Assembly (NCBI GenBank): GCA_020432595.1
Contig: JAGQGA010000390.1
Span: 1-5,550 of the forward strand
DNA: 5,550 bases
Source: Anaerolineales bacterium
GTDB taxonomy: Bacteria; Chloroflexota; Anaerolineae; Promineifilales; Promineifilaceae
Reading direction: 5' to 3'
Shown: positions 1-5,550 of the stretch, one piece after another
How the letters are laid out: every line of letters starts with the position of its first letter
Numbering within the stretch: position 1 is the stretch's first letter
The notes under the pieces: generated by a model
The model's database searches: none
What the model saw: only the letters and a program-made list of their open reading frames with translations
Told to the model about the DNA's origin: nothing
Made by a program: the position numbers and the translations under genes

Positions 1-382
1 GCTAGACATTCCCCTGATCGTGCTCATTAACCAGGGCAGTGCCAGCGCCAGCGAAATTGTGGCCGGGGCGTTGCAGGACAACCATCGCGCCACCCTGTTG
101 GGCGAAACCACCTTTGGCACCGGCACCGTTCTCAACGAGTTCGGCCTGTCCGACGGCTCGGCGCTGCTGCTGGCAACGGAACAATGGCTCACCCCCTCCG
201 GCCGCGTCATTTGGCACAGCGGCATTGTCCCCGACACTGTGGTTCCGCTGTCTTTGGACACCCAACTGCTGCGGCCAGAAGCGGAGCGGCAGCTAACAGC
301 GGCGGAACTAGCAAACAATGCCGACGCGCAACTGCTGCAAGCGATTCAACAACTTATCACAGAAATCAAAGGACAATCGTAG
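1..382 (+). CDS. S41 family peptidase (C-terminal processing protease-like), 3' part only
   Basis: The gene enters from the left edge in frame (first full codon at base 2) and stops at TAG 380-382, leaving 126 residues. The fragment contains the S41 active-site region: NQGSASASEIVAGAL at residues 10-24, in which the middle serine (residue 15) corresponds to the nucleophile of CtpA/CtpB/Prc. Next come the GETTFGTG segment (residues 34-41) and the LSDGSALLLATEQWLTP and GIVPD elements that usually end the catalytic domain. In classical CTPs the general-base lysine lies 25 residues after the serine, in FGKG. Here that position is threonine (residue 40, ACC at 119-121), and the glutamine four residues later is leucine. 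The family is clear, but the standard Ser-Lys-Gln catalytic set is not intact. These proteins are usually exported and have a PDZ domain upstream, which is outside the window. The stop lies one base before the next start, so the two genes are probably co-transcribed. Confidence 0.9.
   Translation, partial: LDIPLIVLINQGSASASEIVAGALQDNHRATLLGETTFGTGTVLNEFGLSDGSALLLATEQWLTPSGRVIWHSGIVPDTVVPLSLDTQLLRPEAERQLTAAELANNADAQLLQAIQQLITEIKGQS
368..373 (+). promoter_or_regulatory. Ribosome binding site for the PAP2 gene
   Basis: AAAGGA lies inside the last codons of the S41 gene, ten bases before ATG 384. It supports ATG 384 as the start rather than an upstream in-frame ATG at 318, which would overlap the peptidase gene by 65 bases. 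The arrangement suggests translational coupling. Confidence 0.55.
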
Positions 383-383
383 C

Positions 384-1055
384 ATGAATCGGCAAAAGAT
401 TAGTTGGTTGTTTATATTGGTGGTGCCATTAACGGCCGTTACTCTTTTTCTTGAACTAGCAGAAGATGTTTGGTTCCGAGAAGGGTTTGCCTGGGATGCC
501 CCTATCATGCTGGCCGTCCACAGCTTCAGCCTGCCCTGGCTCGACACTGTTTTTCGCCTGATTGCCGACACAGCCGGGCCGCTGGTGGGCATTCCGGTGC
601 TAATAACGGCCGTTATTCTCTGGCAAAAACGAGAATGGGTAATGGCTCTCCTGTTCCCCATTTCCCTTGTCGGTGCGGCCGTTCTCAACACCCTGCTCAA
701 ACATATTTTCAGCCGCCCACGCCCCACCGTTTCCCCCCCACTGGTGGCCGAAACAAGCTACAGCTTCCCCAGCGGCCACGCCATGTCAGCCATTGCCTTC
801 TATGGACTGCTCTCCCTGGTGCTGTGGCACCATCGGCAATACGGCTGGGCGATTGTGGCTGGCATCTGGGTTCCGCTTGTCGCCCTCAGCCGCGTCTATC
901 TGGGCGTTCATTATCCCAGCGATGTTCTGGCCTCACTCACCCTCGGTACCATCTGGCTCAGCCTTGTCTGGTTTGTCTACACCGACAAATACGCCCTCTC
1001 ATCCACTTATGCCCAAACAGTTGTTGCCAGGCTCAACAGGCTTTTCCAACCATAA
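384..1055 (+). CDS. PAP2 superfamily membrane phosphatase
   Basis: This 223-residue integral membrane protein has the full three-part PAP2 (type 2 phosphatidic acid phosphatase) signature. Motif 1 is K-x6-RP (K106 to R113-P114), motif 2 is PSGH (129-132), and motif 3 is SR-x5-H-x3-D (S169-R170, H176, D180). In this family H176 would be the phosphorylated nucleophile and H132 the acid that protonates the leaving group. About six hydrophobic segments are visible, near residues 6-25, 55-80, 85-105, 134-150, 153-169 and 181-200. PAP2 proteins of this size remove phosphate from lipid phosphates or pyrophosphates such as phosphatidic acid, phosphatidylglycerol phosphate or undecaprenyl pyrophosphate. 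The exact substrate cannot be read from the sequence. ATG 384 was chosen for its upstream AAAGGA and the one-base gap to the preceding stop. Two copies of AACGGCCGTT (431, 605) fall in codons for Thr-Ala-Val. The gene ends just before a strong hairpin. Confidence 0.93.
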   Translation: MNRQKISWLFILVVPLTAVTLFLELAEDVWFREGFAWDAPIMLAVHSFSLPWLDTVFRLIADTAGPLVGIPVLITAVILWQKREWVMALLFPISLVGAAVLNTLLKHIFSRPRPTVSPPLVAETSYSFPSGHAMSAIAFYGLLSLVLWHHRQYGWAIVAGIWVPLVALSRVYLGVHYPSDVLASLTLGTIWLSLVWFVYTDKYALSSTYAQTVVARLNRLFQP

Positions 1056-1068
1056 ACTAAATAGGTCA

Positions 1069-1102
1069 AGATTGGTTCAATCTCCAAAGATTGAACCAAT
1101 CT
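1069..1102. terminator. Perfect 15-bp hairpin between converging genes (repeat A)
   Basis: AGATTGGTTCAATCT (1069-1083) is followed by a four-base loop, CCAA, and then its exact reverse complement (1088-1102). It sits between the stop of the PAP2 gene (1055) and the stop of the converging small gene (1121), where a bidirectional terminator would be expected. Neither side has a T-run, so it is not a classical intrinsic terminator. It shares the AGATTGG/CCAATCT ends with the larger 7-base-unit hairpins further right and may be a divergent relative. Confidence 0.6.
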
Positions 1103-1120
1103 AAATCACTAAGCAAAGTA

Positions 1121-1360
1121 CTACACCCGCAGCACATGCTGCTGCGGCAAGGCCATTTCCCATGTCAACGTGTCGGGGCGCAAGATGATTTCGCGGGCTT
1201 GCTGACCGGGCAGCATAATGAGGACGTGACGGCCGTTCATATCTAGCCATTGCCGCCCCTGCTCCACCACCTGCCACGCTGCACCTATCTGCACCCGCTG
1301 CACCCGCACAGTGCCGTTGGCCGAAAAAGAACAGTCTACGCCGATTGTTATGTGTGTCAT
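1121..1360 (-). CDS. Hypothetical protein, 79 residues
   Basis: ATG at 1360-1358, stop TAG at 1123-1121. I do not recognise the family. The protein is soluble in character, with no signal peptide or membrane segment. Alternating polar and hydrophobic stretches (TVRVQRVQIGAAWQVV near residues 17-32; RHVLIMLP near 44-51; AREIILRPDTLTWEMAL near 55-71) suggest a small beta-rich fold with several tryptophans. Support for it being real: it fills its interval exactly, lies on the same strand as the genes upstream, and is bounded by intergenic hairpins on both sides. A near-copy of the local palindrome (ACGGCCGTT, 1229-1237) lies in it. No Shine-Dalgarno sequence is visible before the ATG; the upstream bases read CTCCTTTTTT. 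It could be the last gene of the glycosyltransferase operon. No function is proposed. Confidence 0.6.
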   Translation of the reverse strand: MTHITIGVDCSFSANGTVRVQRVQIGAAWQVVEQGRQWLDMNGRHVLIMLPGQQAREIILRPDTLTWEMALPQQHVLRV

Positions 1361-1366
1361 AAAAAA

Positions 1367-1422
1367 GGAGATTGGAGATTAGAGATTGGAGATTGACACC
1401 CTCTCAATCTCTAATCTCCAAT
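1367..1422. repeat. Intergenic 7-base-unit inverted repeat (repeat B)
   Basis: Four successive 7-base units occupy 1367-1394: GGAGATT, GGAGATT, AGAGATT, GGAGATT. After a spacer the mirror-image arm reads CAATCTCTAATCTCCAAT (1405-1422). The 18 bases at 1371-1388 pair perfectly with 1405-1422 around a 16-base loop. Because the units are alike, a shorter pairing (1389-1395 with 1405-1411) is also possible. The element fills almost the whole gap between the small gene and the second glycosyltransferase gene. Confidence 0.85.
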
Positions 1423-1426
1423 TACA

Positions 1427-2182
1427 TCAACGCTTCCGCCATAGCCACGCCAACTTACGGTATTTGTCCCACTCGTAATACGCCATCATGGTGCTGAGCC
1501 AGAAGCCGTGCCAGCCGTCCGAACGGCCGTTTAACGTTACAAACCGCCACCAAAACTGCCGCAAAGGCTGCAAAACATAGTTCTGCGGCTTAGGGCGCGT
1601 CCCCGCCTGGTGCAAAATCGTCGCCTCATAGGTGGCATACGCCCGCTGCGTGCGGTGAAACTGCGCCTTGTCGTGATAGTTATAATGGGTTAGCGGGTTT
1701 TGCAAATGCCCAATGCCACCATCCACCACCGCCACCTCATGCACTGGCCGCTCATAGCGCACGCGCCCATGCTTGAACAGCCGCAGTTGGTAGTCGGGAA
1801 ACCAGCCCGCCCCTAGCGTCAACTTGCCAAAAATATGGTTGTGGCGCGGCACATACCATCCCATTTGCGGCCGTTCCGCCACCACCCGCCGCACTTCAGC
1901 CGCCAGTTCAGCGGTAGCCCGTTCGTCGGCATCCACAAAGAAAACCCAGTCGCAGCTTCCAGCCACAGCATCGAGGGCAGCATTGCGCTGCTGGGCATAG
2001 TTTTCAAAGCGGTTTTGGTAGGTGGTGGCTCCCTCTTGTTGGGCAATGGCAACGGTATCATCCTGGCTATACGAATCAAAGACAACAACCCCATCGGCCC
2101 AGGCCAAACTTTCAATGCACGCCTGAATGTGGCTGGCTTCGTTGAGGGTGAGAATAACGGCCGTTATCGACTGTGGAGACAT
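1427..2182 (-). CDS. Family 2 glycosyltransferase, WaaE/KdtX-like
   Basis: The 251-residue product fits the GT-A glycosyltransferase family 2 group that includes the lipopolysaccharide core beta-1,4-glucosyltransferase WaaE/KdtX. Visible hallmarks are the nucleotide-binding start SITAVILTLNEASHI (residues 5-19), FDSYSQDDT (35-43), NYAQQRNAAL (61-70), the metal-binding DxD-type motif FVDADE (82-87), and the acceptor-side segments YQLRLFK (131-137), RPVHEV (145-150) and LTHYNYHD (164-171). There are no membrane segments, so it is probably cytoplasmic or membrane-associated, using a nucleotide sugar to extend a lipid-linked glycan. ATG 2182 was chosen because homology begins at SITAVI. A longer in-frame start at 2236 would translate through an intergenic repeat and is unlikely. 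No clear Shine-Dalgarno sequence precedes 2182. The first AACGGCCGTT encodes Thr-Ala-Val near residue 8, and another encodes Asn-Gly-Arg near residue 219. The donor and acceptor sugars cannot be read. Confidence 0.9.
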   Translation of the reverse strand: MSPQSITAVILTLNEASHIQACIESLAWADGVVVFDSYSQDDTVAIAQQEGATTYQNRFENYAQQRNAALDAVAGSCDWVFFVDADERATAELAAEVRRVVAERPQMGWYVPRHNHIFGKLTLGAGWFPDYQLRLFKHGRVRYERPVHEVAVVDGGIGHLQNPLTHYNYHDKAQFHRTQRAYATYEATILHQAGTRPKPQNYVLQPLRQFWWRFVTLNGRSDGWHGFWLSTMMAYYEWDKYRKLAWLWRKR

Positions 2183-2249
2183 GAGAAAAGAGATTGGAGA
2201 TTGGGGATTGGAGATTGAGCAATCTCTAATCTCCAATCTCTAGTCTCCA
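2174..2249. repeat. Intergenic 7-base-unit inverted repeat (repeat C)
   Basis: The left units are AGAGATT, GGAGATT, GGGGATT and GGAGATT (2189-2216). The right units are AATCTCT, AATCTCC, AATCTCT and AGTCTCC (2221-2248). The arms 2189-2210 and 2220-2241 pair over 22 positions with two mismatches, around a nine-base loop. An outer TGGAGAC (2174-2180) also matches GTCTCCA (2243-2249), so the structure reaches over the start codon (2182-2180) of the WaaE-like gene. In a + strand transcript the two mismatches would be G-U pairs; in a - strand transcript they would be C-A. Confidence 0.85.
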
Positions 2250-2260
2250 CATTCAAAGAA

Positions 2261-3181
2261 TCAAGTTCCGTTTGTTGACCACAGGGAAATAACCTGTTCA
2301 TAAGCCGCCCGCAGTTCGGGGTCATCGGCCTGCTGCGCTTTTTTGCCCAGGGCAAAGGCCACCATTTTGGCTGCCACCTTTTGCGTCAGGTGGCCGTGGT
2401 GCCGCTTGTAAAGCTGGTAGCGGCTTTGCCACAGGTTATAAACCGAACGCGCCGGTATCTGCTTGGTGCTTTCGCCCCCATAATGCACAATTTCGGCGGC
2501 TGGCACGGTGTAGATTTGCCAGCCGGCCGCCTGCACCCGCCAACTCCAATCTATCTCCTCACAATACATGTGAAACGATTCATCAAAGCCGCCGGTGGCT
2601 TCGGTAACGCTGGCGCGGACGAGCATGGTGGCCCCCAGCGTGTGGTCTACGCGGAAGGGGGCGTGGTCGGGGCGGTAGAGGTGGCGGGGATAACGGCCGT
2701 TTAACCGACTTTCGTACAATCGGGCTGGCATAGGAAACAGGTCAAAGGCCAACTGCACCAAACCGGGAAAGGAGAAGGCACTGTGCTGAAAACGGCCGTC
2801 GCCATAGACCAGCCGCGCCCCGGCAATTCCCGCTTCCGGCCGTTCATCCAGGCAACCAATCAGCCGCTTCAATGCCCCTTCACGCAGCACAGTGTCGGGG
2901 TTGAGCAGAAAATAGTAGCGGGGATGATGGGCGGCAGCGGCTCGCATTCCCTGGTTGTTGGCCGCACCAAAACCGTGGTTATGGTCATTGACAAGCAAAT
3001 GGGCCTGCGGAAAAACATTTTGCAGCAGTTCGGCTGTGCCATCGGTGGAGGCGTTATCCACCACCCACACTTCCCCATGCAGCCGCGACCGCTGTAGTTC
3101 GCGGTAAACGGAGCGCAAACAGTCTGAAAGATAATCACGTACATTCCAGCTAACGATGACAACCGCTACATCTAAGGTCAT
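2261..3181 (-). CDS. Family 2 glycosyltransferase, WbbL/rhamnosyltransferase-like
   Basis: This 306-residue GT-A fold glycosyltransferase begins with the typical VAVVIVSWNVRDYLSDCLRSV (residues 5-25). It continues with VVDNASTDGT (40-49), NHGFGAANNQGM (68-79) and the metal/nucleotide motif LLNPD (92-96). DHTLGATMLVRA (179-190) is followed by GGFDESFHMYCEEIDWSWR (197-215), whose E208, E209 and D211 lie in the usual catalytic-base region. HYGGEST (233-239) closes the domain. This order is typical of WbbL-type enzymes that add rhamnose or related sugars to lipid-linked glycans. The true donor is unknown. ATG 3181 directly precedes the conserved first strand, and no strong ribosome site is visible before it. 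It lies upstream of the WaaE-like gene on the same strand, 78 bases away, with a hairpin repeat between. The pair suggests an envelope or exopolysaccharide glycan. AACGGCCGTT at 2692 encodes Asn-Gly-Arg. Confidence 0.92.
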   Translation of the reverse strand: MTLDVAVVIVSWNVRDYLSDCLRSVYRELQRSRLHGEVWVVDNASTDGTAELLQNVFPQAHLLVNDHNHGFGAANNQGMRAAAAHHPRYYFLLNPDTVLREGALKRLIGCLDERPEAGIAGARLVYGDGRFQHSAFSFPGLVQLAFDLFPMPARLYESRLNGRYPRHLYRPDHAPFRVDHTLGATMLVRASVTEATGGFDESFHMYCEEIDWSWRVQAAGWQIYTVPAAEIVHYGGESTKQIPARSVYNLWQSRYQLYKRHHGHLTQKVAAKMVAFALGKKAQQADDPELRAAYEQVISLWSTNGT

Positions 3182-3192
3182 AGTTTGGTGTG

Positions 3193-3230
3193 GGGTGAAG
3201 GGTGAAGGGATTGATTAACGGCCGTTCACC
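3193..3230. repeat. Short 7-base tandem (GGGTGAA) with inverted partner
   Basis: GGGTGAA is repeated directly at 3193-3199 and 3200-3206, followed by GGGA. TTCACC at 3225-3230 is the reverse complement of GGTGAA (3201-3206), giving a six-base stem around an 18-base loop that contains the intergenic copy of AACGGCCGTT (3217-3226). It lies just upstream of the WbbL-like gene. The unit length matches the other intergenic repeats but the unit sequence differs. Small size makes this the weakest of the repeat calls. Confidence 0.4.
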
Positions 3231-3266
3231 ATTCCTAAAGTCTAGTTGTTGCTACCTGTTTGTTTT

Positions 3267-3320
3267 TGAGATTGGAGATTGGAGATTAAAGATTTGCAAT
3301 CTTTAATCTCCAATCTCCAA
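3267..3320. repeat. Intergenic 7-base-unit inverted repeat (repeat D), perfect 23-bp stem
   Basis: The left units are TGAGATT, GGAGATT, GGAGATT and AAAGATT (3267-3294). After a three-base TGC centre, the right arm reads AATCTTT, AATCTCC, AATCTCC, AA (3298-3320). Bases 3272-3294 and 3298-3320 are perfect reverse complements, 23 bp with a three-base loop, the tightest of the set. The variant unit AAAGATT is matched exactly by AATCTTT in the opposite arm. The right arm overlaps the 3' end of the lipoprotein gene and contributes its last codons and stop. With no clear T-run, it could act as a processing or stability hairpin on the - strand transcript. Confidence 0.88.
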
Positions 3321-4508
3321 CAACGCCGCTAACGGCAAATCCAGCATCTCGGCAATAAAACGAATCGGCTCATAATCACCGTCTGTCGCCACCGCCAACC
3401 CCGCCCAGCCATAAAAATCGGGCGAACAAAGGGAGGTGGCGCACGCTTCAGCAGCGGCAAAATCCAGCAGCGCTTGGGTGACAGTACGCGATAACCCTAG
3501 GGGAAAATCCGCCCCAAAAGCAATAGTTTCATTGGGTATGGGAGCGGTGATGGTAATAATGCGCGTCACGTCAAAAATATCTTCCCTGGTATCAAAAATA
3601 CCGGCGCGGGCATCGCGGATGCGATAGCCACCTGTTTCTGGAGTGCCATTGACCAAAATGTAGCCCAAACCGCTGCGCGTGGGGGGCAAACCCAGTCGCC
3701 GCCACAGTTCCGGGGTGTCTTCGCCATAACGCCACGGCTGTTCGGCAAAGGGCAAAATGGGCGGGGTGAAGGTGGCCGTGGCGATGTCGGCATCGCTATT
3801 GTAAACGGCAAGCAGGCTACTATTGTCGCCCGGCTGCACTAGCTTTTCACCAATGGTGATGCCGTTAGCAAGCAACAAGGCTTCGGCATAGCGCGTTTGT
3901 AAAGAATCGGCACCGTTCACGGCTAGGCGCACACCGCCCAAATCAGTCAAATCGTCCACAGTTCGCACGCCGCTGCGGTCGGGTCGGGCAACCAGCATGT
4001 CGGCCTGCCCTGTGTAGCCATCGTCATGGACGGCTACCAACCCAAGCTGGGCGTGGCACTGCTGCTGGGCGAGGGTGTAGCCAACGGCCGTTAAAAAGCC
4101 AATCGTATCTTGCGGTGCCTGACACAGCAGCCCAATCAGCGTCTGCTCGTCGTCCACAATGCCCACCGCCACATGTAGTCCGGTGGCCGTTTGGATGGCT
4201 TCCAGCAGCGGCTGGACACGCTGGCTGAGCAGGTCGGTGTTAATGGTCGGGGTGAACAAAAGCTGCAACGGCCGTTCCTTGCTGCCCAACGGCGTTTTGG
4301 TCACTTCAACGGCCGTTTCCACGAGCCGCGTCGCTTCCACAACCACCTCACGGGTAATGGGGGCAAGGCGGGTAACTTCGATGGGTGGGGCAGAAACGGC
4401 CGTTTCTGCTTCCACCAACCGCGTCACTTCCACCGCCACCACCTGCGGCTGGCACGCTACCAGCCAGCAAACCAAGCTCATTAATGCAATGCGTCGCACG
4501 CCATCCAC
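3303..4508 (-). CDS. PhnD-like substrate-binding lipoprotein of an ABC importer
   Basis: About 401 residues from GTG 4508. A short basic start (VRR) and hydrophobic core end in the lipobox LVAC, with C19 as the lipid-anchored cysteine. A linker follows with four VEVTR-type segments (about residues 26, 43, 57 and 67), as seen in many Chloroflexota lipoproteins. From about residue 80 it follows the phosphonate-binding PhnD pattern: LQLLFTPT, DTIGFLTAVGYTLA (134-147), YTGQADMLVARPD with VDDL (165-187), GVRLAVNGADSLQTRYAEALLLANGI (192-217), and LLAVYNSDADIATATF (232-247). Four cysteines (129, 151, 356, 361) could form disulfides. The upstream PhnE-type permease gene supports a role as ligand receptor for the same importer, perhaps for phosphonate, phosphite or another small anion. 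Start choice is open: TTG 4538 lies inside a terminator-like hairpin; GTG 4508 and GTG 4499 (after GGTGG) both give good lipoprotein signals. The last five residues (LEIGD) and stop come from repeat D. Confidence 0.82.
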   Translation of the reverse strand: MDGVRRIALMSLVCWLVACQPQVVAVEVTRLVEAETAVSAPPIEVTRLAPITREVVVEATRLVETAVEVTKTPLGSKERPLQLLFTPTINTDLLSQRVQPLLEAIQTATGLHVAVGIVDDEQTLIGLLCQAPQDTIGFLTAVGYTLAQQQCHAQLGLVAVHDDGYTGQADMLVARPDRSGVRTVDDLTDLGGVRLAVNGADSLQTRYAEALLLANGITIGEKLVQPGDNSSLLAVYNSDADIATATFTPPILPFAEQPWRYGEDTPELWRRLGLPPTRSGLGYILVNGTPETGGYRIRDARAGIFDTREDIFDVTRIITITAPIPNETIAFGADFPLGLSRTVTQALLDFAAAEACATSLCSPDFYGWAGLAVATDGDYEPIRFIAEMLDLPLAALLEIGD

Positions 4509-4511
4509 CAG

Positions 4512-4548
4512 AAAATAAAACGACTGACCCTTTGACAAGCGTCAGTCG
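4512..4548 (-). terminator. Terminator-like hairpin with T-run just before the lipoprotein gene
   Basis: Read on the - strand, CGACTGAC (4548-4541) pairs with GTCAGTCG (4528-4521). Three more pairs inside (CTT/AAG, after one mismatch) leave a four-base loop. TTTTATTTT (4520-4512) follows directly. This is the form of an intrinsic terminator. It could end transcription from the permease gene or, if a promoter lies upstream in the gap, act as an attenuator in the lipoprotein leader. It covers the TTG at 4538, which argues against that start. Confidence 0.6.
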
Positions 4549-4569
4549 AGACCATCCTCAATGCGTTCT

Positions 4570-4598
4570 AGTTTACTGTCTGCCCTTGCGAAAGCCAA
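4570..4598 (-). promoter_or_regulatory. Possible weak promoter for the lipoprotein gene
   Basis: On the - strand, TTGGCT (4598-4593) and TAAACT (4575-4570) are separated by 17 bases and partly match the sigma-70 -35 and -10 consensus. Transcription would start near 4563, upstream of the terminator-like hairpin. The match is imperfect and found by eye, so this is only a candidate. Confidence 0.2.
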
Positions 4599-4641
4599 CC
4601 AAACTTAGACAAGGCTCATTCTCTAGGGACTTGACTCGCTT

Positions 4642-4715
4642 TTGACGTGGTGCGTAGTACGTAGCCAATGGGCTTTTTATTGAACGCACCACGCACTACG
4701 CACCAATTTTGTCAA
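4642..4715. repeat. Intergenic inverted repeat with a different 7-base unit (repeat E)
   Basis: The right arm consists of ACGCACC, ACGCACT and ACGCACC (4684-4704). The left arm has the mirrored units GGTGCGT and AGTACGT (4649-4662). TGGTGCGTAGTACGTAG (4648-4664) pairs with 4689-4705 with two mismatches, which would be G-U pairs in a - strand transcript. An outer TTGAC (4642-4646) matches GTCAA (4711-4715). The loop holds GCCAATGGGC followed by TTTTT. The element lies in the 4509-4765 gap between the permease and lipoprotein genes. That gap otherwise holds only the terminator-like hairpin and the weak promoter candidate. Confidence 0.75.
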
Positions 4716-4765
4716 CCTCACAAGACCTGAAAGAACCTTTTGGTTGATGTTGGCACTGTTAGCAC

Positions 4766-5550
4766 CTAAATAATCCGCGCCCGAATCCGAGAGCTAACGT
4801 AATCGAGCAGCATAACCACCAGGGCAATGGCAATCATCATCACGCTGGCCTGGCGGTAACGAAGCTGCTGGATATTTTGGCTGAGAACAAAGCCAATGCC
4901 GCCACCGCCCACAAAACCAATGATGGTTGACATCCGCACGTTTATGTCCCAGCGGTAGAGCGTAAAGGCGATGTAGGGGGGGATAATTTGCGGGATGACG
5001 GCATAGACGATCATTTGCAGGCGGCTGGCCCCGGTGGACAAAATCGCTTCGATTGGCCCCTCATCAATCCCTTCAATCTGCTCTGAAAATAGCTTGCCCA
5101 GGGCGGCAATGGTGTGGAGCGTTAGTGCCATAATCCCGGCAAACGGCCCCAGGCTGACCCACACCACAAACACAATCCCCATGATCAGCGGCTCGATGGA
5201 GCGCAGGGCGTTGAGGATGCTGCGGGAGATGGTGTAGATGACAAAGCCGACGGCAAACGGCCGTTTAACACGCAAAAACCCCGCCACCACCGCCATGATA
5301 ACCGCCGCCACCGCTGCCGGGATCGTCGTCCACCGCTCCGGGTTGTCAAAAAGGTAAAGCCAGTTGAGGGCTGAACCGATGCCGTAGACCAAAACGGCCG
5401 TTCCCACCAGCGTCACCGCCACCGTCAATGCCCGCGCTGATGTTTCATTCAGCCGCAGCACCGCCTCCTGCCCATAGTGGCTGCCATAGCTGGCGGCCAA
5501 AAACGCCCCCAGCAGCCCCAGCACCCCCGGAAGGCCAATTAAAATAAAGT
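4766..5550 (-). CDS. phnE: PhnE-type ABC transporter permease, 5' end beyond the window
   Basis: The reading frame is open to the right edge, so the start lies outside; about 260 residues are visible, close to the full length of a PhnE (usually 250-290). Stop TAG at 4768-4766. It is an inner-membrane permease with several hydrophobic segments. The ABC permease EAA loop reads EAILSTGASRLQMIVYAVIP (encoded at about 5050-4991), with the conserved glycine and the final I-P that dock to the ATPase. The stretch after it (PPYIAFTLYRWDINVRMSTIIGFVGGGGIGF) is characteristic of the phosphonate importer permease PhnE. The residues before the GTG at 5524 (FILIGLPG) still look like membrane protein, so that GTG is not the start. 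It probably works with the downstream PhnD-like lipoprotein and an ATPase encoded outside the window. Two copies of AACGGCCGTT lie in it, in different codon phases (Arg-Pro at 5256, Thr-Ala-Val at 5393). The actual ligand is not known. Confidence 0.9.
   Translation of the reverse strand, partial: FILIGLPGVLGLLGAFLAASYGSHYGQEAVLRLNETSARALTVAVTLVGTAVLVYGIGSALNWLYLFDNPERWTTIPAAVAAVIMAVVAGFLRVKRPFAVGFVIYTISRSILNALRSIEPLIMGIVFVVWVSLGPFAGIMALTLHTIAALGKLFSEQIEGIDEGPIEAILSTGASRLQMIVYAVIPQIIPPYIAFTLYRWDINVRMSTIIGFVGGGGIGFVLSQNIQQLRYRQASVMMIAIALVVMLLDYVSSRIRARII

Follow-up and report, generated by a model that had tools for sequence, protein, structure and literature searches.

The stretch of DNA analyzed here (the window) covers positions 1 to 5,550 of contig JAGQGA010000390.1, from an Anaerolineales bacterium of the phylum Chloroflexota (assembly GCA_020432595.1). 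It contains the end of an S41 peptidase gene, a PAP2 gene, a short gene without a Pfam match, two family-2 glycosyltransferase genes, a phosphonate-binding-protein-like gene and a transport permease gene (ABC-transporter permease), and dispersed among these are copies of a palindromic 10-mer, AACGGCCGTT. In relatives of the window genome the motif is genome-wide, centered on CGGCCG, conserved site by site at the DNA level, and present in mutually exclusive lineage dialects. Some bacteriophages carry it too.

A first-pass annotation of the window had reported 12 exact copies of AACGGCCGTT. All 12 lie where it placed them, none arose in 200 dinucleotide shuffles, and their codon phases are as it gave them: ACG-GCC-GTT (seven copies), AAC-GGC-CGT (two), CGG-CCG (two) and intergenic (one). 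Markov models of the window predict 0.08 (order 3), 1.1 (order 4), 3.9 (order 5) and 9.4 (order 6) copies of the 10-mer, the last value being high because an order-6 model trained on 5.5 kb already contains the motif. Of the 19 CGGCCG cores in the window, 14 lie inside the 8-mer ACGGCCGT; the 10-mer is therefore an extended form of the 8-mer and the 6-mer. Based upon core counts in aligned relatives (Table 1), widely shared and unshared sites coexist.

Table 1. Positions of AACGGCCGTT and its shorter forms in the window. Cores in aligned relatives were counted among loci L001-L041 only.
Form	Position	Location	Codon reading	Core in aligned relatives
AACGGCCGTT	431..440	PAP2 gene	ACG-GCC-GTT	
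AACGGCCGTT	605..614	PAP2 gene	ACG-GCC-GTT	
AACGGCCGTT	1522..1531	first glycosyltransferase (minus strand)	AAC-GGC-CGT	0/23
AACGGCCGTT	2156..2165	first glycosyltransferase	ACG-GCC-GTT	11/18
AACGGCCGTT	2692..2701	second glycosyltransferase	AAC-GGC-CGT	29/40
AACGGCCGTT	3217..3226	intergenic		
AACGGCCGTT	4083..4092	phosphonate-binding-protein-like gene	ACG-GCC-GTT	
AACGGCCGTT	4267..4276	phosphonate-binding-protein-like gene	CGG-CCG	
AACGGCCGTT	4308..4317	phosphonate-binding-protein-like gene	ACG-GCC-GTT	
AACGGCCGTT	4395..4404	phosphonate-binding-protein-like gene	ACG-GCC-GTT	
AACGGCCGTT	5256..5265	ABC-transporter permease gene	CGG-CCG	
AACGGCCGTT	5393..5402	ABC-transporter permease gene	ACG-GCC-GTT	
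GACGGCCGTT (8-mer form ACGGCCGT, single outer-base mismatch)	1228..1237			
AACGGCCGTC (8-mer form ACGGCCGT, single outer-base mismatch)	2791..2800			
bare core CGGCCG	199..204			
bare core CGGCCG (GCGGCCGT)	676..681			
bare core CGGCCG (GCGGCCGT)	1868..1873			
bare core CGGCCG	2524..2529			
bare core CGGCCG (CCGGCCGT)	2837..2842			

Abundance of the motif in related genomes

Genome-wide counts were made in relatives of the window genome, which were found via the second glycosyltransferase (best 80 of 213 places). The matches lie in metagenome bins from Chloroflexota with the labels Ardenticatenaceae, Promineifilum, Anaerolineae or Chloroflexi, the best being 72% identical; most loci bear metagenome-assembled genome titles, and many of the genomes are drafts binned from metagenomes. 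The window adjoins L031, L006 and L007 in a 45-row tree, with a support of 93/90, which is under the strong threshold of the tool. The genome of L031, G013, has the highest AACGGCCGTT count among the 19 genomes searched and belongs to an order that we take to be Promineifilales.

The 19 relatives counted whole carry 2,526-5,060 copies of AACGGCCGTT in eight genomes, 79-877 in six and 1-20 in five, and the reversed word, used as a control, occurs 0-42 times across all 19 and 7-42 times in the eight rich ones. At least 2,800 copies of ACGGCCGT are present in 29 of 56 genomes of the order of G013. In 28 of the 56, the A.T-dialect genomes (see below), the 8-mer numbers 2,887-15,176 copies, or 0.44-2.10 per kb (437-2,102 per Mb), and accounts for no less than 34% of the CGGCCG occurrences. 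A class-wide sample of 249 genomes yielded more than 1,000 copies in nine, all nine belonging to the same order.

In samples of 100-153 kb from four genomes, no 8-mer has a higher order-3 z score than ACGGCCGT, which was seen 314, 309, 214 and 172 times. The corresponding expectations are 12.2, 12.4, 8.6 and 8.5 at order 3, 31, 38, 24 and 20 at order 4, and 125, 139, 108 and 69 at order 5. For the G001 sample (153 kb), the 314 copies compare with 12.2, 30.8, 125 and 272 expected at orders 3, 4, 5 and 6, respectively; the order-6 expectation reaches 0.86-0.91 of the ACGGCCGT count because an order-6 model contains most of the motif. The Markov check that the first-pass annotation had proposed, run here on the four samples from relatives, gives counts above the order-3 to order-5 expectation, and the motif is not confined to the window locus.

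Conservation and flank dialects

Copies of the motif are kept as DNA between species. Exact ACGGCCGT was retained at 78-98% of aligned sites in 11 locus pairs, compared to 20-72% for other same-composition 8-mers in those alignments; the 10-mer was retained at 18/24 and 20/34 aligned sites (controls, 21% and 12%), and in the pair L030/L032 the bare core persisted at 64/97 (control, 30%). Motif columns have an identity of 0.88-1.00, and the six columns on each side 0.65 to 1.00. The locus pairs used in these and in the turnover comparisons share sequence and are not independent, which the binomial values ignore. Four-fold degenerate third positions, in codons with conserved first and second bases, were compared between the motif and the same codons outside it, with genes taken from simple open-frame calls, as for the phase counts below. 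Four-fold sites within the motif are identical between species at 90/91, 60/61, 111/116, 46/46, 20/20 and 34/34 (96-100%) in six pairs; the identity of the same codons outside the motif is 0.68, 0.62, 0.58, 0.71, 0.69 and 0.83. The clearest codon is CGT in the pair G009/G007, retained at 17/19 inside the motif and 25/126 outside. Synonymous sites in the motif are constrained in all three phases, in agreement with the DNA-level, phase-independent cause that the first-pass annotation had suggested, and protein constraint does not explain the conservation.

These data also bear on a mutational or codon-usage by-product, in which codon and dinucleotide preferences make ACG-GCC-GT common. Sites in four contigs divide into 416, 240, 129 and 73 for phases 0, 1, 2 and non-coding DNA, so that ACG-GCC-GT, the commonest phase, does account for 416/858, and some genomes have raised CGGCCG without a dominant flank. 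Sites nevertheless fall in every phase and in non-coding DNA, the same codons are far less conserved outside the motif, Markov models of orders 3, 4 and 5 underpredict the motif about 20-26, 8-10 and 2.0-2.5 fold, and the flank dialects differ among relatives of similar GC. The four-fold-site conservation and the Markov underprediction contradict a codon-usage origin, which we regard as very improbable.

Among palindromic hexamers, CGGCCG leads in over-representation in 30 of 32 sets picked from likely relatives, at 4-20 times expectation; another hexamer ranks first in G006 and L016. Low values also occur in the same part of the tree (L035, 0.2; L029, 1.4; L037, 2.0). At 0.2 times expectation the core is nearly lost from L035, as if avoided, and the same holds for G271, with 447 CGGCCG in 4.0 Mb versus 7,315 GCCGGC. 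Among other palindromes, GGGCCC and AGGCCT are strongly avoided in 11 genome samples (0.0-0.5 and 0.0-0.3 times expectation, respectively) while CGGCCG is enriched, and TGGCCA is enriched 3.6-4.0 times in G009 and G007, but stands at 0-0.4 in G013 and G015.

Around the common core the flank dialects are A.T, AA.TT, T.A, G.C, or none. The A.T flank reaches 66-136 times expectation in six A.T samples, in which one-sided flanks reach 0-7 times (up to 13 times in the small samples G013 and G015, with counts of only 3-4). In most A.T forms of G013, G010, G015 and the window, the flank extends to AA.TT, with A as the second base at 0.62-0.76. The G.C flank stands at 72 times expectation in G012, where it surrounds 39/46 cores in the sample, and the T.A flank at 74 times in G016 and 67 times in G017. 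Whole-genome counts of T.A are 9,414 (G017) and 7,668 (G016) versus 198 and 85 for A.T; the next T.A count, 2,070, is found in the bare-core genome G018, which, like G168, has no dominant flank pair around CGGCCG. Dialects tend to follow clades in the gene tree, in which many deep branches are unresolved.

Turnover between dialects was followed by aligning A.T sites to other loci, with positions binned by three bases. Against eight targets that are themselves A.T (69-71% identity), the sites persist in 56 to 84% of locus pairs (444/617) and at least once at 68/152 target positions, with controls of the same composition kept at 4-12%. Against two T.A loci (L036 and L038) and one G.C locus (L026), with identities of 68-69%, they persist in 0/192 pairs and at 0/46 positions; the core too is lost in every case, and controls are kept at 2-3%. 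Retention within A.T and none across dialects imply that the constraint acts on the local dialect. Where a T.A or G.C site aligns to an A.T locus, ACGGCCGT never stands at that place, so that dialect change goes with sites at new places. Six loci that are neither clearly A.T nor switched were left out of the pool, with sites kept as follows: L041 (15/34 pairs; 1/4 positions), L030 (16/35; 1/5), L014 (23/58; 2/14), L028 (7/61; 1/15), L016 (38/97; 4/22) and L027 (26/59; 2/13).

The profile around the copies addresses whether a dispersed mobile repeat happens to carry the palindrome. The window does hold intergenic repeats. Most copies of the motif, however, lie within unrelated genes in differing phases, and beyond the motif they share no bases except for a mild G preference four bases out from the core, which we tentatively take to be a first codon position. 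This flank profile contradicts a mobile-repeat origin, the chance of which we consider negligible.

The intergenic repeats themselves are three inverted repeats made of GATTGGAGATT units (window positions 1368-1422, 2169-2254 and 3265-3320), one of which has perfect 23-bp arms around a gap of 3 bases. The window has seven occurrences of GAGATTGGAGATT or its complement, and among L001-L041 it is present in L001, L002, L005, L009, L010, L021 and L033. Another, unrelated intergenic inverted repeat, GTGGTGCGTAGTACGTAG ... CACCACGCACTACGCACC, was read from the sequence at 4647-4704.

Phage copies, candidate enzymes and the putative reader

Viral contigs were scanned for two close copies of the motif, and 21 stretches were returned. 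Among them, AACGGCCGTT occurs 19 times in 12.9 kb of L199 (portal and capsid-protease genes), 17 times in 14.3 kb of L211 (terminase, capsid-protease), 10 times in 14.8 kb of L207 (tape measure) and four times in 11.7 kb of L200 (terminase), although the terminase gene of L200 itself lacks ACGGCCGT. On contigs that have a portal, capsid-protease, terminase or tape-measure gene, ACGGCCGT occurs 1.2-2.2 times per kb, which is a host-like density; other stretches from the scan are hardly core-enriched (L194, 2.7 times; L206, 1.6 times). Three contigs filed as viral, L191, L192 and L255, hold 3.0-3.7 ACGGCCGT per kb, above all 29 genomes computed. All three could come from phages or from mobile elements of another kind; the matches in L191 and L192 are to replication-initiation, helicase-loader, antirepressor or FtsK-like proteins.

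That some phages carry the motif at host-like density points to an intracellular process and away from uptake, in which transformation machinery would prefer the palindrome and drive its accumulation, as with the DNA uptake sequence (DUS) dialects of the Neisseriaceae. The resemblance to DUS dialects is real in that a constant core has lineage-specific flanks (parts of PMC3630211) and per-genome counts run into the thousands for both, and the ComEC family (PF03772) is present in 50/56 genomes. Against it, the motif is perfectly palindromic and DUS are not palindromes (parts of PMC1939737), and mobile elements of Neisseriaceae show atypical DUS distributions according to parts of PMC7371117. 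ComEC is also found in the motif-poor genomes G267, G268, G271 and G272 and in 10/14 control genomes, and its presence does not discriminate motif-rich from motif-poor genomes. We therefore hold uptake to be rather improbable.

A more serious alternative is a cognate methyltransferase. In Elhai's model of highly iterated palindromes (HIPs), such as HIP1 of cyanobacteria, an orphan enzyme, here for CGGCCG or ACGGCCGT, would mark the sites and methylation-directed mismatch repair would ratchet near-sites toward the motif. Each alternate HIP is tied to its own methyltransferase in the portions of Elhai 2015 drawn on here (PMC4390886), which also describe some HIP1-rich genomes without an enzyme for CGATCG. 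The MutS family is present in 55/56 genomes. One-off partners deviate at the outermost base in 10/12 cases in G009/G007, as HIP1 one-offs tend to, and in 3/4 in G007/L018; the other pairs give 4/9 (G001/G003), 1/2 (G009/L018) and 0/12 (remaining seven pairs).

Profile searches for methyltransferases covered PF00145, PF01555 and PF02086 in 56 genomes each and PF02384 in eight. No match to PF00145 (5-methylcytosine) at E <= 0.001 was found in 14 of the 28 A.T-dialect genomes, and the 21 proteins compared from 30 fetched loci do not form a single orthologous group. Five of these 14 (G003, G009, G010, G265 and G281) also lack a match better than 9.5e-10 to PF01555, a family that is common overall. 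PF02384 has matches in 6/8 genomes searched, including the methyltransferase-poor G003, G009 and G265, which speaks for the cognate-enzyme account, and none in G281 and G010, which speaks against it.

The near-universal enzyme is PF02086, matched at <=1e-50 in 24/28 A.T-dialect genomes and at first a candidate for that reason. The PF02086 matches of the five genomes named above align with the Dam-type group, and the representatives from G013 and G016 bear the name Dam family and are similar to DpnM and to the Dam enzyme of E. coli. Dam targets GATC, which is not in the motif. The family is also present in the motif-poor G267, G268, G271 and G272, so that it does not follow motif richness, and it was rejected. 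PF02086 at <=1e-50 is absent from G018, G287, G288 and G219, of which G018 and G219 have CGGCCG without a dominant flank, as is likely for G287 and G288 from their counts; its presence in bare-core G168 and in the same four motif-poor genomes is at odds with a simple link between Dam and flank.

By family presence, none of PF00145, PF01555, PF02086 (56 genomes) or PF02384 (eight) explains the motif as a common cause. A dedicated methylation site, one of the possible causes listed by the first-pass annotation, is thereby weakened, as only a Dam-type enzyme is near-universal among the searched families; repair bias and chromosome organisation, also on its list, remain candidates. A motif-dedicated methyltransferase seems not to be required, so the motif is not simply HIP1 with another enzyme, and we judge the cognate-methyltransferase explanation unlikely. 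DNA phosphorothioation was also rejected, since dndC exceeded its curated cut-off in only 5/56 genomes (G002, G007, G014, G229 and G274).

Taken on the sequence evidence, we consider it fairly probable that the motif is a HIP-type palindrome that arose independently within one Chloroflexota order, read as a whole by a putative protein and maintained inside the cell. A DNA-binding protein, symmetric and probably a dimer, would recognize all 8-10 bp of the palindrome together, and may act on any DNA in the cell, whether chromosome or phage. Two observations fit such a dimeric reader of the whole palindrome: the flanks are symmetric and nearly all-or-none, and old sites are lost where the dialect has changed. 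Its binding could either be useful, with selection for sites, or bias repair toward the motif. Gains and losses were polarised in five loci (5,702 aligned starts, 15 sites, nine common to all five), with so few events that selection and biased repair are not separable there. A change in reader specificity would let old sites decay while sites of the new dialect accumulate elsewhere. A narrower version, to which we give a low probability, is a methylation-independent self-signature, i.e. a lineage palindrome read on all resident DNA by a putative dimeric protein as a checkpoint of repair, recombination or defence. If so, the local dialect would be obligatory on chromosomes and phages alike, and a shift in reader specificity would rewrite thousands of sites.

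Several observations weigh against a maintained palindrome with its own reader. Non-coding DNA is slightly depleted, holding 7.6-11.0% of sites versus 10-14% of bases, which gives no hint of a regulatory role. Spacing is near random (coefficient of variation 0.89-1.12), with only gaps <30 bp too few, and therefore no chromosome-scale pattern is seen. Not all sites are old, as the window copy at 1522 is absent from 23/23 aligned relatives. The phage contigs were selected by the motif scan and thus demonstrate the existence of such phages but not their frequency. Finally, an overlooked or unbinned cognate methyltransferase is possible because the profile searches covered four families, with PF07669 and smaller families outside them and PF02384 limited to eight genomes, and because many of the genomes are draft bins.

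Comparison with known repeated words

The parallel with HIP1 drawn by the first-pass annotation holds for abundance, palindromic form and independence of codon phase, and also for the replacement of the word in some lineages. Like HIP1 (GCGATCGC) and the alternate HIPs, as described in parts of Elhai 2015 (PMC4390886), the motif is a GC-rich palindrome around a palindromic hexamer, and its 437-2,102 copies per Mb in 28 genomes compare with around 500-2,500 per Mb given there for HIPs. It also shares with HIPs its occurrence in genes regardless of phase, its rank among the most over-represented words genome-wide in relatives of the window genome, and its replacement by other palindromes in some relatives. 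HIP1 is conserved at the DNA level beyond codon constraint, and so is the motif. It differs from HIP1 in its word, in its host (Chloroflexota rather than a cyanobacterium), in having dialects around one common core, and in that no methyltransferase family among those searched explains the word, as judged by family presence only (PF02384 in eight genomes). With these sequence-based HIP features present and no word-specific methyltransferase seen by family presence, we class the motif as an HIP-type element, not as HIP1.

Neisseriaceae DUS dialects (parts of PMC3630211) likewise combine thousands of copies with a constant core and lineage-variable flanks. Unlike DUS, the motif is palindromic and has no orientation, and it is found at host-like density in some phages (a set chosen by motif). 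Chi sites are short, over-represented, species-specific recognition words that are directional and not palindromic; the motif is likewise short and over-represented, but palindromic. A word search of the main text of Elhai 2015 (PMC4390886) returned neither Chloroflex nor CGGCCG. No paper describing the motif was found among the titles and abstract starts listed, most subscription papers being outside the search.

In our view, HIP1 is still unexplained partly because it has been a single case in a single phylum. The motif adds another system, independent of the first, and a natural experiment comes with it: alignable relatives have a single core with several flank dialects, and some have only the bare core or have lost the motif. 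It separates the traits that HIPs share (palindrome, density of ~1 per kb and DNA-level maintenance) from a possibly dispensable cognate methyltransferase. A gene that switches with the dialect would directly identify an HIP reader, and the dialect itself could help to match phages and unbinned contigs to their hosts.

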